A DNA stretch of 64,000 nucleotides, from positions 2,356,001 through 2,420,000 of the forward strand of contig NZ_CP133133.1 in assembly GCF_030908625.1 (NCBI RefSeq), in the 5' to 3' direction. The stretch's first letter is position 1. Every line of letters begins with the position of its first letter. Made by a program: the position numbers and the translations under genes. Source of the stretch: Paludicola sp. MB14-C6 (lineage in GTDB: Bacteria; Bacillota; Clostridia; Oscillospirales; Ruminococcaceae). Shown piece after piece: positions 42,385 to 48,205 of this stretch. Under the pieces are notes generated by a model that had not been told where the DNA came from, did no database searches, and saw only the letters and a program-made list of their open reading frames with translations.

Positions 42385-43677
42385 TTGAAAAATTTCTTTC
42401 ATTCTATGAAATTAATTTTAAATCGAATGAAAACAAAAGTGTCTTTTGCTGTGGGAGCTGATAGATTAAATAAAGAGTTTTTGCAGTTTTCTGGAATGCA
42501 TTTAATGTACTTGTTAGCAACAAGTATTACGATGGTATTTGTTAATACCTTGCTTATGCGTGTTGCCGCAGATCCAAATACAATTGCATTAAAATATAAT
42601 ATGGTTCACTTCGTCTTTGTAGGACTTTCTATGACTTGGGCAGCTATGTTCATGAAAAAGTTCAATAATAAAGTAATTATCGTAATAGGTGTGTCGTTAT
42701 CAATGCTTACCTACTTGTTAACCTTTATTTTCATGGAGAATTTAGACCAAGTATATGCAATTGTAGCAATGGTTCATGGTATTGCTACAGGTTTTTATTG
42801 GATTATTTATTTTGATTCGTTGTTAATATATTCAAATGATGATACAAGAGATCTTGCAATGTCCTTTTTAGGTATATTTGCAGGTATTATTTCATTGGTA
42901 ATGCCTCTCGTATCGGGGGCTGCAATTCAAAATTTACCGGGCTTTCTTGGATATTACGTTGTATTCGGCATTTGTTTTGCTATAGCAACATATGCTGTTT
43001 ACTTAGTTACAAAATTACCGGTCGTTGCGCCAACAGGCGGAAAAACCAAGTTTCGTTTGTTATTAAAAAACATATATACAAAGAAAGTATGGTTTTTTGT
43101 TATTCATATGGATTTCTTTAAAGGAATTCGTGAAGGTGCATTTAGCTTTTTCTTAAATGTTTTATTATTTAAGATAGTTCAAAGCGAGGGCTTGGTAGGA
43201 TTAAATACAACTTTAGTAGGAGTAACATCTATGATTTCCTGCATTGTTGCGGGAAAGATTATGCGGCCGAATAACCGCATGAAGTTAATGTTGCTTGGTA
43301 CTACCATTTTAACATCATTAGCTTGTATTCTTTTCTTCCAGCTCAATACAATTACCATTTTGATGTTATCTATTGCAAATTCATTTTTAGGATTTTTTGT
43401 AGTGAATCCAACTACAACAACGATGTATACTGTTTTAGAGCTTGTGCCAAATGCAAATGAATTAAAAACAGAGTTAATTTCTACATCCGAATGCTACAAG
43501 AATTTCGGTCGTATTTTAGGCGTATTGCTAATTATGGTATTACCACAAACGAATTTTTATTATGTTTTATCATTAGTAATATTAACAGTAACTCAATATG
43601 TTACAGTTTTGTTTGCAAAAATAACTTTAAAGAGTGCGAAAAATTACGCAGTCGTTAAGGAGAATAGCGAATGTTAG
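42385..43677 (+). CDS. MFS-like multi-pass transporter
   Basis: A 430-residue protein with about 12 helices and a long central hydrophilic loop after helix 6 (VVAPTGGKTKFRLLLKNIY). The substrate is unknown. I prefer the TTG at 42385, with GGAG about 10 bases upstream; the ATG at 42370 has its G-rich bases directly abutting and is less likely. The last 7 bases overlap trmK. The fold assignment rests on hydropathy and loop pattern. Confidence 0.65.
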   Translation: MKNFFHSMKLILNRMKTKVSFAVGADRLNKEFLQFSGMHLMYLLATSITMVFVNTLLMRVAADPNTIALKYNMVHFVFVGLSMTWAAMFMKKFNNKVIIVIGVSLSMLTYLLTFIFMENLDQVYAIVAMVHGIATGFYWIIYFDSLLIYSNDDTRDLAMSFLGIFAGIISLVMPLVSGAAIQNLPGFLGYYVVFGICFAIATYAVYLVTKLPVVAPTGGKTKFRLLLKNIYTKKVWFFVIHMDFFKGIREGAFSFFLNVLLFKIVQSEGLVGLNTTLVGVTSMISCIVAGKIMRPNNRMKLMLLGTTILTSLACILFFQLNTITILMLSIANSFLGFFVVNPTTTTMYTVLELVPNANELKTELISTSECYKNFGRILGVLLIMVLPQTNFYYVLSLVILTVTQYVTVLFAKITLKSAKNYAVVKENSEC

Positions 43678-44357
43678 ACAAACGATTATTGGCAATCGCA
43701 AATTTAATCCGAAAAGGCAGCTATGTATGCGATGTAGGAACAGATCATGCATATCTCCCTTGTTATTTAGTAAAAGAGGGTATTACAAAGCAATGTGTTG
43801 CTTGTGATATAAATGAGATGCCATTACAAAGTGCTAAGGAACATATTCAAAGCTATGGCTTTGAAGCACAAATTGAAACAATTCTTTCAGATGGGCTTAA
43901 AAATGTTCCGTCAGCAAAAGCACAAGATATTGTAATTGCTGGTATGGGTGGAGAGTTGATAGCGAAAATATTGCAAGGTGTATCTTATACCAAAGAGAAA
44001 GACAAACGCTTTTTGTTACAGCCAATGACATTTGTTCCATACCTACGAAAATATCTTTGTGAAAATGGGTATGAAATTTTAAGCGAAATGCCCGTTATTG
44101 ATAAAAATAAAACTTATACGATATTGTGTGTAGCATATACAGGTGTGGTAAAAGAACCATCTGCATTGTTTTTATTAGTCGGTAAAATACCTGAGAACCA
44201 ATCAGAGGAAGCCAAAATTTATATACAACGTCAATATCAAAAACAAATAAAAATTGCGAAAAGTATTGAAGAATCATCAGAGAAAAAAGATAAAGCACAA
44301 CAATATTATCAAATTGCTTTTGAGTTGAAAGACTTATTAAACAAAAAGGAGGGCTAA
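43671..44357 (+). CDS. trmK: tRNA (adenine-22-N1)-methyltransferase
   Basis: Methylates A22 of tRNA with SAM. The 228-residue protein has VCDVGTDHAYLPCYLV (SAM-binding motif I with the family's DHAYLP) and VIAGMGGELI near residue 87, both diagnostic for TrmK. C-terminal coiled-coil-like tail. AAGGAG precedes the ATG. Its final codons are inside the 54-bp palindromic terminator. Confidence 0.93.
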   Translation: MLDKRLLAIANLIRKGSYVCDVGTDHAYLPCYLVKEGITKQCVACDINEMPLQSAKEHIQSYGFEAQIETILSDGLKNVPSAKAQDIVIAGMGGELIAKILQGVSYTKEKDKRFLLQPMTFVPYLRKYLCENGYEILSEMPVIDKNKTYTILCVAYTGVVKEPSALFLLVGKIPENQSEEAKIYIQRQYQKQIKIAKSIEESSEKKDKAQQYYQIAFELKDLLNKKEG

Positions 44358-44383
44358 TGCCCTCCTTTTTGTTTAATAAGTCT
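44330..44383. repeat. 54-bp palindromic terminator, left copy (target duplication)
   Basis: A perfect inverted repeat: two 25-base arms (AGACTTATTAAACAAAAAGG onward) and a TAAT loop. It spans the trmK stop codon and acts as trmK's terminator. An exact second copy is at 45908-45961 on the other side of the IS element. Confidence 0.92.
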
Positions 44384-45824
44384 CAGTCTGAAGAAAAAGC
44401 CCGATTTTGGCGTAACCAAAGTCGGGCTTTTGAATATATGGTTGAAAATTTGAAAAAAGTGCAAAGGATACAAAAAGGAGAGTTCACCCTCCACTTATGT
44501 ATTGCCAGCTTTTTAAGGTTCATGCACGCAAATTTAAGCCTAACCCAGTTTGTTACTTGGCAAGACCTCGATAAGGTGTATAACGCATTGCGTATTTTTC
44601 TTTCGCATCAGCAAAAACTCGCTCAATCGTTTCTTTTCGCTGTGCATAAAGATCTTTGTATTTTATTGCATAACGAATATCTGAAACTTGCTCTAAGTAC
44701 TCATGCCAAACATGAACTGTGTATTGTTTCTGGAATTCTTTACTTTCAGTGCATTTGTAACGAAACCCACAGATTTTACAGTCGTTTGGATTGCTTTTAA
44801 ATTCTTTGTATCCTTCTCTATTCGTGGTGGAATAGTGTAAAACTTTATTGTTTGGACATACTACACAGTCAAAATATTCATCATATGAAAAATCATATTT
44901 CTTAAAAAAGCCTTGTTTTGTCATTGGTCTACGATATGGTACTAATAAATCTTTTCCATCATCTATAAGTCTTTTTGCAATATAGGGAGTATTGTAGGCA
45001 CTATCTGCCACTATTGTTTGGATTTCGGGGTGGTTTTCTTTTAATTTATCATACAAATCATCGAATGCTACGCTGTCATGTACATTGCCTGCTGTTACAT
45101 GAACATCTACAATGTAGCCTTTTTTGTCACAAGCTGTATGTGCTTCATAAGCAAGGCATTTCTTATGCTCTCCTTTATGAAATACACCGCTTTCAGGGTC
45201 AGTGGTTGATTCATTGATGATTTTTTCTTCTATTTTAGGTGGCTTTGTATCGTCAAATGGCTTTTTTTTATGTTCTTCTCTATCTTTATTGATTTCGTCC
45301 ATTAGTTGTTTCTCATAATGTTTTGCTGCTACGGGGATTGATTTCTTTACAACCTTTTTTATATTTGCATTTGCTTTTATATGGGTTCCATCTACAAATA
45401 CCACCTCTGGGTCAAGATATCCCATATCATTGATTTCATTCAATATCCAGTTGAAAATGCATGCAATAGTATTCTCGTTAAATCTATGTTTAAAGGCATA
45501 ACTTATTGTTGTAAAGTGAGGTATTTGTTCTGTCATTAAATATCCTAAAAACCAACGATATGCACAGTTCATTTGTACTTCTTCTACCAATTTGCGCAAC
45601 GAACTTATTCCATACAAATGTTGTATTAAGACCATTTTGATTAGTACTACTGGGTCTATGCTTGGTCTTCCATTATCTTTACAATACAAATCCTCTACGA
45701 AATCATATATATGACAGAAATCCACTGCACTATCTATTTTTCTAAGCAAATGTTCTGCTGGAATAAATTCTTCTAAGCACAAAAACTCTACTTGTGTTCG
45801 GTCTTTTTTAGCTTTAACTAACAT
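44383..45824 (-). pseudogene. IS1182-family transposase, frameshifted
   Basis: The 423 readable codons carry the IS1182 pattern: RTQVEFLCLEEFIPAEHLLR, DNGRPSIDPVVLIKM, FVDGTHIKANAN (catalytic Asp), IVADSAYNT, and ETIERVFADAKEKYAMRY (catalytic Glu). The frame stops at 44553 after YRGLAK. A one-base shift at about 44556 restores VTNWVRLKFACMNLKKLA, the normal family C-terminus, to a stop at 44383, giving about 480 residues. A missing G (AAGTAAC for AAGGTAAC) explains it. The final stop codon borrows one base of the target repeat. Confidence 0.88.
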
Positions 45825-45907
45825 TTAATCACCCTATTTAATTATACCATTTTTCGCGTCAAAAGTCCCCTAAATCATCGAATTTAGGAGACTTTTTCTA
45901 CAAGCTG
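44384..45907 (-). mobile_element. IS1182-family insertion sequence
   Basis: 1524 bp. Terminal inverted repeats CAGTCTGAAGAAAAAG (44384-44399) and CAGCTTGTAGAAAAAG (complement of 45892-45907), 13 of 16 matching. It is flanked exactly by 54-bp direct repeats. Long, variable duplications and palindromic targets are known for this family. Confidence 0.93.
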
Positions 45908-45961
45908 AGACTTATTAAACAAAAAGGAGGGCTAATGCCCTCCTTTTTGTTTAATAAGTCT
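45908..45961. repeat. 54-bp palindromic terminator, right copy
   Basis: Identical to 44330-44383. It lies 21 bases beyond the stop of the minus-strand PBP gene and serves as its terminator. Confidence 0.92.
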
Positions 45962-45982: not shown

Positions 45983-48205
45983 TTATGGAGCTGTAGAGCC
46001 ATGAAGGCTACAAACATCAGGTAAACTATTTTTCTTATAATAACCTGTTTCTTTTTTAGGACATCCGGATTGAGCTAACAATCCTGTTTCCTTACAGAAT
46101 TCAAGTTCAACAACGTTTGAGCCATCCAATTCGAAATCAGCTTTATTACGTCCTTTATGAACCTGTTCCATAACATTCTTCCAAGTTTTTAAATGATGTC
46201 CATACCCACCACTGCGGTCTTGGTTGATTTCTAATTTGTTATCATCAAATCCATAACGAATACCAGCAACATAATAAGGTGTTAAGCCCATAAACAATAG
46301 GTCTTTTCTGTCGTTGGAAGTACCTGTTTTTCCTACGGTTTCCCAATTGCTTAGTTTTGCATATTTACCAGTACCATTGTCTACAACATTCCATAAGCCC
46401 TTATTCATAATATAAGCTGTATCACCGGAAATAACTTGTTTTCTTTCACGTGTAGTCGTGTCTAAAATAACTTTTCCTTCGCCATCTTTTACTTTGGTAT
46501 ACATCTTAGGTTGAATATAGTAACCACCATTACCGAAAATCTGATAAGCAGCTACTAATTCATTTACAGTAATACCACCATCGCCTAAAGCCAAGCTAGC
46601 TGGGTTGACATTGTTGATTTTGCCTGTAGGGATAAGTGATTTTAAATTTAACTTATTATAAACAAAGTCAAATGAATTTTGAGGAGTCAAAGCATTTACA
46701 ATGCGCACCGGAATTGTATTTTTAGAAACTCTCAATGCGTCAATGATAGTAACTGGACCTTCGTATCGTTTTTCATAGTTGCTAGGCCAATCACGTTCTT
46801 CACCTGTTTCAGGATCTTTTACTTTTTGAACAGCACTATCCTCCATAACAGTGGACCAGTTAATTAAGTTTTGTTCAAAAGCAGGCGCATATACACCTAG
46901 TGGTTTCATTGTTGAACCGGCAGGTCGTTTTGAGGATACTGCTCTGTTTAAAATACGGTTGCCTTCTTTTTTACCTCTTCCGCCTACTGTTGCAACGATA
47001 TTACCATCATAATTCATAATGGACATATATGCTTGTAGTGATTTTGCTTCTTCGCCTTTGAATTTAAAGTTCGCCGGGTTTTCAAAATAGTTTTCTAGTA
47101 TTTTTTGAGTTTCAATTTCCATTGAAGTGTAGATTTTAAAGCCTTGTGAATACAATTTTTGTGTTGCATTACTCTTGTTATAGCCTTTTTCTACCATTAA
47201 ATCATTAACAACTTCATCAATAACGCTATCAATAAAGTAGCTTTGAACTTTTTGAACAGGACCTGTTGTCTTGACGTTATCATCCTTTACATGATCATTG
47301 TTTTTATCACCAGCAAGCTTTAAGTCCGCATTATATGCTTTATCAAATTCTTCTTGCGTTATAGCACCATACTTAAGCATCTGTTTAAGCGCATATTGTC
47401 TACGTTCTTTGTTTCTTGCAGGATTTTGAATTGGATTACAAGTAGCAGGGCTTTTTGAAATAACCGCTAAAGCTGCACATTCCTCTAAATTCAATTCAGA
47501 TACATCTTTATTAAAGTATAGTTTTGCACCCGCTTGCACACCATAAGTGTTATAGTGTAAAGCAATATAGTTCATGTATGCTTCTAAGATAGTTTCCTTT
47601 GGATTATTTTTATCAAGATTCATAGCGGTGATAATTTCTTTAATTTTAACTTCAATTGTACGGTTGTTAATATCACCATTATAGTTTTTGATAAGCTGTT
47701 GGGCTATGGTTGAACCACCACCAAAGCCTTTTTCGCCAATTAGTAATCCAAAAAATGCACCAAATGTACGTTTAAAGTCCACACCGGAGTGCGTCCAAAA
47801 TCTTGCATCTTCTGCATATACAATTGCATCTTTTAAATCTTGTGGAACCTTTTCATAGTCCACCCACACACGATTTTCGCCGTTGCTGATATTTTGAACT
47901 TCTACATCTTTTCCATCTTTATCTTTTGCAAAGATCGTACCAGTAAAGCTTAATTTTAATGTTGATAAATCAATAACAGAACCAGAATCAATAAACTTGG
48001 TTACATAAATCGTTAATGCAGTACCGACAATGCATCCGGTTATTGTTAAAACAAGTATAGTAGTTAGTAAAACTTTGCCTATGACAGCAAATGCTCTTTT
48101 CATTTTTTTAACAGTAGGAGATGATGGCTTTTTCCTACTTCTTTTATTGGTTGTCTTTGGGCCTGTTCTTACTACCCTTGGAGTTGTCGAGTTGTTATTA
48201 TTCAT
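45983..48205 (-). CDS. ponA: Class A penicillin-binding protein (PBP1A-type)
   Basis: Builds peptidoglycan at the outer face of the membrane. The 740-residue protein has a basic cytoplasmic tail, one membrane helix (about 42-68), a glycosyltransferase domain (EDARFWTHSGVDF at 132, catalytic Glu132; GGSTIAQQLIKN), and a transpeptidase domain with STMK (nucleophile Ser near 430), SKN and KTGT. A Cys-containing tail (CKETGLLAQSGCPKKE) is usual in Firmicutes. AAGGAGG precedes the ATG. Confidence 0.93.
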   Translation of the reverse strand: MNNNNSTTPRVVRTGPKTTNKRSRKKPSSPTVKKMKRAFAVIGKVLLTTILVLTITGCIVGTALTIYVTKFIDSGSVIDLSTLKLSFTGTIFAKDKDGKDVEVQNISNGENRVWVDYEKVPQDLKDAIVYAEDARFWTHSGVDFKRTFGAFFGLLIGEKGFGGGSTIAQQLIKNYNGDINNRTIEVKIKEIITAMNLDKNNPKETILEAYMNYIALHYNTYGVQAGAKLYFNKDVSELNLEECAALAVISKSPATCNPIQNPARNKERRQYALKQMLKYGAITQEEFDKAYNADLKLAGDKNNDHVKDDNVKTTGPVQKVQSYFIDSVIDEVVNDLMVEKGYNKSNATQKLYSQGFKIYTSMEIETQKILENYFENPANFKFKGEEAKSLQAYMSIMNYDGNIVATVGGRGKKEGNRILNRAVSSKRPAGSTMKPLGVYAPAFEQNLINWSTVMEDSAVQKVKDPETGEERDWPSNYEKRYEGPVTIIDALRVSKNTIPVRIVNALTPQNSFDFVYNKLNLKSLIPTGKINNVNPASLALGDGGITVNELVAAYQIFGNGGYYIQPKMYTKVKDGEGKVILDTTTRERKQVISGDTAYIMNKGLWNVVDNGTGKYAKLSNWETVGKTGTSNDRKDLLFMGLTPYYVAGIRYGFDDNKLEINQDRSGGYGHHLKTWKNVMEQVHKGRNKADFELDGSNVVELEFCKETGLLAQSGCPKKETGYYKKNSLPDVCSLHGSTAP

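Follow-up and report, generated by a model that had tools for sequence, protein, structure and literature searches.

An IS1182-family insertion sequence at terminator-like hairpins, and a group of related elements that duplicates the hairpin whole

DDE transposases are usually described as cutting with a near-fixed stagger, which gives target duplications of nearly fixed length. Members of the IS1182 family, however, are recorded in ISfinder with direct repeats of 2–60 bp (PMC7335449), and 4-bp repeats are described for ISCaa15, one such member (PMC3196728). That IS1182 elements can target hairpins at gene ends is already known. ISCbo5 of Clostridium botulinum group III is a multi-copy element whose sites, all but one, are hairpin-forming inverted repeats at gene ends that are thought to act as transcription stop signals (PMC3098183), and IS1272 and TnSha1 of staphylococci insert at hairpins that share no sequence and several of which are terminators (PMC5678879, PMC4923244). 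Duplication of the whole stem-loop was drawn by Wan et al. (2017) as an alternative to the replacement observed for IS1272 (Fig. 13, pathway b; PMC5678879). The original prediction for this locus likewise named palindromic targets and long, variable duplications as known traits of IS1182-type elements.

We analysed a 64,000-nucleotide stretch of the Paludicola sp. MB14-C6 genome, hereafter the window, which contains a 1,524-bp IS1182-family insertion sequence with CAG...CTG tips at positions 44384–45907, its transposase on the minus strand, as delimited by a profile match and by the borders of its many copies. The IS lies between two 54-bp hairpins, a left one at 44330–44383, defined by sequence identity and folding, and a right one of the same sequence at 45908–45961. 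Direct comparison confirmed that these flanks are identical, abut the IS tips and form a perfect palindrome with 25-bp arms and a TAAT loop, as predicted. As RNA, the palindrome folded at −39.9 kcal/mol (z −12.9), a stability equalled by none of 200 shuffles, and a simple terminator scan scored the right copy as terminator-like on the plus strand but not the left copy. The prediction had placed the repeat borders both at the IS tips and at the outer ends of the arms; the former is correct, but the latter is not, because in the reconstructed empty site the stem continues for two further A-T pairs past each border, leaving the borders 2 bp inside the outermost foot. The terminal inverted repeats agree at 13 of the 16 outer bases, and the ends taken together with the palindromes form inverted arms of 72 nt (90%).

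The transposase gene (44553–45824, minus strand) encodes a DDE-type IS1182 transposase, called from its open reading frame and from NCBIfam NF033551, whose score of 383.8 bits against a cut-off of 270 bears out the predicted family identity; a 480-aa copy reaches 406 bits. The copy in the window has one base fewer than most, and its reading frame stops early, giving 423 aa rather than the 480 aa of the intact copies, many of which are present in the genome. Residues D145, D274 and E401, invariant across a 19-sequence alignment and all contained in the 423 aa, presumably constitute the DDE catalytic triad.

On the left lies trmK (43671–44357, plus strand; PF04816), encoding tRNA (adenine-22-N1) methyltransferase, and convergent with it is a class A penicillin-binding protein (PBP) gene (45983–48205, minus strand; PF00912, PF00905), whose stop codon is 21 bp from the right hairpin copy. 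The 3′ end of trmK falls inside the left copy, the left arm containing its last codons and the loop its TAA stop, so that the gene would have been shortened had the insertion removed the hairpin. trmK was instead left whole, since its stop lies in the loop, and both neighbouring genes retain the T-rich arm, since it belongs to the repeat. Duplication at this site therefore fits the idea, put forward in the original prediction, that termination of both trmK and the PBP gene would be preserved and the insertion thereby harmless. The idea does not generalise, as the T-tract is usually left uncopied elsewhere: hairpin tails facing an IS tip had at least five T in eight bases in 0 of 128 cases, against 69 of 136 in reconstructed empty sites. 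All seven other genomes of the genus encode TrmK (40–49% identity), but six have no PBP within 1.5 kb of it, a result repeated with a positive control, and in the seventh (G005) the contig stops ~165 bases past the trmK match. An empty counterpart of the window insertion was not found in these seven genomes, their flanking DNA being too diverged.

The Paludicola genome, a single contig of 2.94 Mb, carries 23 insertions of this IS (40 of 81 candidates scored): 19 of them full copies, three interrupted by another IS and one internally deleted. Exact matches to one IS tip also number 23; the other tip has 16, and we assume that the remaining copies carry at least one base difference at that tip. 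The 19 full copies vary at just 8 of 1,526 alignment columns, pointing to recent spread. Hairpins stood at both borders of all 23 insertions, none of which had non-palindromic flanks, and 22 carried exact direct repeats of 22–54 bp, each a centred hairpin of a different sequence. The proposal that the element recognises a hairpin and copies all of it is thus strongly supported by 22 of 23 insertions. In the exception (L014, C1:1674166–1675690) the two flanking hairpins differ, which is what recombination between two copies would be expected to leave after deleting the intervening DNA. The three split copies (C1:1745763–1748778, 2290065–2293234 and 2841230–2844245) were interrupted near the same position by an IS of ~1.48 kb, IS256-like in appearance, which is itself represented by ~19 nearly complete copies and whose repeats are often 8 bp long. 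We also observed that the first 1.0 Mb of the contig holds just two of the 23 insertions.

Gene context was assessed by simple frame calling (at least 70 aa). None of the 22 repeat-bearing sites interrupted a called frame; 12 lay between convergent genes, 10 between tandem genes and none between divergent genes. Every one of the 22 hairpins was at one or more gene 3′ ends, either within 84 bp or in slight overlap. The sense of the IS at the tandem sites was 8 versus 2, too few (n = 10) to tell.

A second IS resident in the same genome served as a control. This 1,483-bp element, which we take to be IS256-like from reading its protein by eye, is represented by ~19 nearly complete copies in the set of scored candidates. 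Its repeats measured 2–9 bp, exactly 8 bp in 6 of 11 copies; none of the 11 copies located among 12 fetched had a hairpin repeat, and only one of 22 borders touched a hairpin.

The relation between repeat and hairpin extends well beyond this genome. A contig scan with the alignment of 19 relatives yielded 185 loci, the best 80 of which, mostly from Clostridia, showed 48–68% identity in their best segment. At 49 of the 80, both IS ends, flanked by 60 nt or more, were called blind to the flank sequence, the other 31 being set aside for unrecognised ends or short flanks. Together with the 23 Paludicola insertions and 14 copies belonging to four multi-copy elements found in other genomes of the phylum, these gave a set of 86 copies. 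Repeats of at least 15 bp were present in 68 of the 86 (67 distinct insertions, as L084 and L085 are the same one), and 64 of the 68 passed a strict hairpin test at both borders, a detector that fired at only 18 of 2,020 flank positions away from the borders. At least six of the eight outer base pairs were Watson-Crick in 67 of 68 repeats, compared with 136 of 20,400 random segments.

Pairing fell away within ~2 bp of the repeat border. The outermost base was paired in 49 of 68 repeats and the next seven positions inward in 65–68 of 67–68; outside the repeat, pairing dropped from 40 of 68 at one base and 38 at two to 22 at three, and ranged over 17–31 further out, in flanks that are A/T-rich. 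Because the outermost pair was not Watson-Crick in 19 of 68 repeats and many stems extend outward by a few more A-T pairs, the hairpin foot is not read exactly. Repeats were 17–54 bp long (median 28 bp across the 68 copies), inside the 2–60 bp range reported for IS1182, and their length follows that of the hairpin. Apart from A/T-rich feet the hairpins share no sequence. The first base of the repeat was A in 52 of 68 and the last was T in 59, with left flanks A-rich and right flanks T-rich, a pattern to be expected of terminators that are read from either side; a weak sequence preference may also be at work. An orientation bias of the IS toward the T-tract, apparent by eye, disappeared on counting (24 versus 26; sign test p 0.89).

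The 18 copies without such a repeat comprised 13 with a hairpin at both borders, four with a hairpin at one and a single copy (L114, 8-bp repeat) with a hairpin at neither. Two of the 13, L140 and L150, are flanked by mutated or inverted copies of one hairpin; those of L150, in Pseudoflavonifractor sp. An44, are exact inverse complements over 32 nt and 94% identical in direct alignment, with the loop flipped. Three of six plasmid elements double a hairpin, in Sutcliffiella (L190, 30 bp), Cetobacterium (L192, 22 bp) and Peribacillus (L191, 24 bp), whereas L189 sits between two unlike hairpins, L188 (ISEfa7) lacks a repeat and the record of L187 includes a single flank.

The state of a site before insertion could be seen in relatives of other hosts, where queries made by joining the flanks of an occupied site around a single hairpin were matched against related genomes. 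Five sites of sister elements were empty with one hairpin: L203, L204 and L205, in the genus of G260, and L208 and L210, in G371, a sister genome of G159. The best match was 98% identical without a gap, and L208 matched at 79% identity with small gaps. A sixth site, L207, was matched in G371 through one hairpin and ~22 bases beyond it, but relative to the query the next matching stretch was displaced outward by ~440 bases, so that the site is not plainly empty, though it holds a single hairpin before the extra DNA. No empty site that already had two hairpins was seen among the sister-element sites matched in relatives. Recombination between copies as the source of elements flanked by two different hairpins was checked for one such copy, L209 of G159, which matched G371 on its right flank (C12:330–780, 78%) and had no match on its left.

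Some of these hairpins carried further insertions in relatives. At the L203 site, G437 carries a ~175-bp element that has IS tips, and G449 and G442 carry it in the opposite orientation; the L205 site holds a full IS in G440, oriented opposite to that of G260, and a shortened one in G449. The hairpin stood on both sides every time, which we read as repeated and independent targeting of the same hairpins. The ~175-bp element (L283 in G437, L291 in G449 and L286 in G442), found at the same orthologous hairpin in three species, has IS tips but no room for a transposase, and we read it as a short non-autonomous relative. Pieces of ~50 bp, consisting of one IS tip and an inner hairpin, were also observed inside target hairpins (L288 in G441, L289 in G437 and L290 in G442); they are either what is left of insertions since lost or elements of very small size.

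Duplication is confined to part of the family. Seventeen multi-copy IS1182 groups, drawn from the sixty matches listed in a survey of 299 genomes of the phylum, were aligned to fix their borders, and four of them duplicated a hairpin while 13 did not. No border hairpin was found at 82 borders of 12 of the 13 non-duplicating groups (all but G355). Eight groups with GGGG tips (28 copies) nevertheless showed left-right flank pairing of 4.36 against 3.52 expected, a value reached in 0 of 2,000 within-group shuffles, as though a hairpin had been removed and its foot left behind. The remaining groups tested, G210, G302, G358 and G143b (13 copies), gave 2.23 against 1.91, reached in 211 of 2,000 within-group shuffles and hence no signal; earlier shuffles across groups had given 0 of 2,000 but mixed base compositions and were therefore repeated within groups. 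Some G210 copies and both G143b copies carry 5–6-bp repeats. Among the non-duplicating sets tested, only the GGGG-tipped groups thus appear to resemble the hairpin-replacing IS1272.

A transposase tree separated the two behaviours: a group of 94 (SH-aLRT 98) contained all 45 duplicating and all 10 two-hairpin rows, and the 12 non-duplicating rows all fell outside it, together with the named IS1182 and a Staphylococcus haemolyticus element. The tree was built by a quick method with SH-aLRT as its only support and a midpoint root for drawing, and the non-duplicating rows have long branches. It has 115 rows, 48 of them without a label, after 17 that came from an element already represented were removed manually, and the non-duplicating group G325 gave no row; the labels rest partly on CAG-type tips, those of L080, L140, L150, L097, L165, L189 and the plasmid rows having been set by hand.

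In these data, insertion occurs at the feet of a hairpin (to within ~2 bp), the whole hairpin is doubled and, where the earlier state is visible, one hairpin was there beforehand. Taking these observations together, we propose, with a probability of roughly 80%, that a group of IS1182 elements targets DNA secondary structure, mostly terminator-like hairpins past gene 3′ ends. Insertion might begin with extrusion of the palindrome as a cruciform; the transposase would then, most likely, join the IS ends to the two 5′ feet of the extruded hairpin, leaving a gap one hairpin long, and repair synthesis copying this gap would produce a full hairpin on each side. The stagger of a DDE transposase would thus be set by the shape of the target and not by a fixed ruler, and hairpin replacement by IS1272 would follow from the same reaction if the ends were joined to the opposite feet instead. 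Extending this to the family, we are inclined to think that one IS1182 clade measures its cut by the hairpin, with joins at the 5′ feet setting the duplication length, and that sister clades use the opposite feet and delete the hairpin.

The structure recognised could instead be a hairpin in single-stranded DNA, on the lagging-strand template or in the RNA polymerase bubble at a terminator, and not a double-stranded cruciform. The sites do lie at gene ends, where RNA polymerase pauses, and any extruded hairpin would give similar products. We nonetheless consider this rather unlikely: by our reasoning, duplication needs joins on both strands, and cutting both feet within one strand would rather delete the hairpin, the outcome described for IS1272 in the relevant part of that report (PMC5678879), while the even split of orientations relative to the T-tract (24 versus 26) shows no bias. 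A host factor such as RNA polymerase or a termination factor might bring the transposase to terminators, with variable staggers and the hairpin merely marking the place. Adjacency to a called gene 3′ end at 22 of 22 repeat-bearing Paludicola sites would suit such recruitment, but a random stagger would not make borders track hairpin feet to ~2 bp over lengths of 17–54 bp, and we regard this explanation as improbable.

Random insertion, with selection leaving only the harmless events at gene ends, accounts for the absence of all 22 sites from called frames, yet it is very improbable, since selection cannot place repeat borders at hairpin feet and the second IS living in the same genome had hairpin repeats in 0 of 11 copies. 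The paired hairpins could, finally, have pre-existed in tandem, or the second could have come from later recombination. This is scarcely credible given a single hairpin in five empty sites of sister elements, and in the match running through a sixth, together with 22 different hairpins that are each exactly doubled. Targeting of hairpins by their structure, with duplication of the whole, thus remains our preferred reading.

The IS also brings hairpins of its own. One end contains an inner hairpin at 44395–44431 (−24.8 kcal/mol, z −6.6), with A-rich sequence before it and T-rich sequence after it, terminator-like by eye, and the other contains one at 45861–45896 (−19.9 kcal/mol, z −4.5), each beginning 12 nt from the tip and identified by folding. 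A strong hairpin 5–30 nt inside at least one end was found in 42 of 54 elements, compared with 0.4% of shuffled ends. Such hairpins may make up for a T-tract missing from the copied hairpin and so restore termination. Earlier work has described terminators, those of ISBma2 among them, upstream of IS transposases (PMC2965389); ISBma2 is listed in the IS1182 family (PMC8370563), and hairpins were predicted near the start of ISCaa15 (PMC3196728), according to the sections of these papers that bear on them.

If the proposal is true, a single structure-guided reaction would have two outcomes, each tied to its own branch of one transposase family, and the duplicating and replacing groups would offer a ready contrast for finding what decides the outcome. 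DNA shape, and not sequence, appears to set both the landing place and the length copied, and repeats of 17–54 bp equal to the hairpin point to structure-guided integration. Terminators would then be recurrent and relatively safe landing sites for mobile DNA, and these elements natural examples of insertion at gene ends with little demand on sequence.

What seems to be new is a sharper description, namely that repeat length equals hairpin length and that a duplicating group exists; in the open literature searched, which is distinct from one main review and ISfinder, we found no statement of either. Hairpin length would offer a simple account of much of the family's odd repeat range of 2–60 bp, a spread for which the relevant part of PMC7335449 gives no reason. 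IS elements that target REP sequences likewise use palindromic chromosomal targets, but those targets are repetitive (PMC1525189, in the part concerned), whereas the hairpins here have no common sequence. Like ISCbo5, the window IS inserts at hairpins at gene 3′ ends, as at 22 of 22 repeat-bearing sites; duplication of the whole hairpin, and its equality with the repeat, are found here and go unstated in the description of ISCbo5 on which this comparison is based (PMC3098183). Like IS1272 and TnSha1, the window IS belongs to the IS1182 family and targets hairpins without a shared sequence. By contrast with IS1272, which in the published account consulted deletes or replaces the hairpin without duplicating its target, the window IS keeps the hairpin and doubles it in 22 of 23 insertions.
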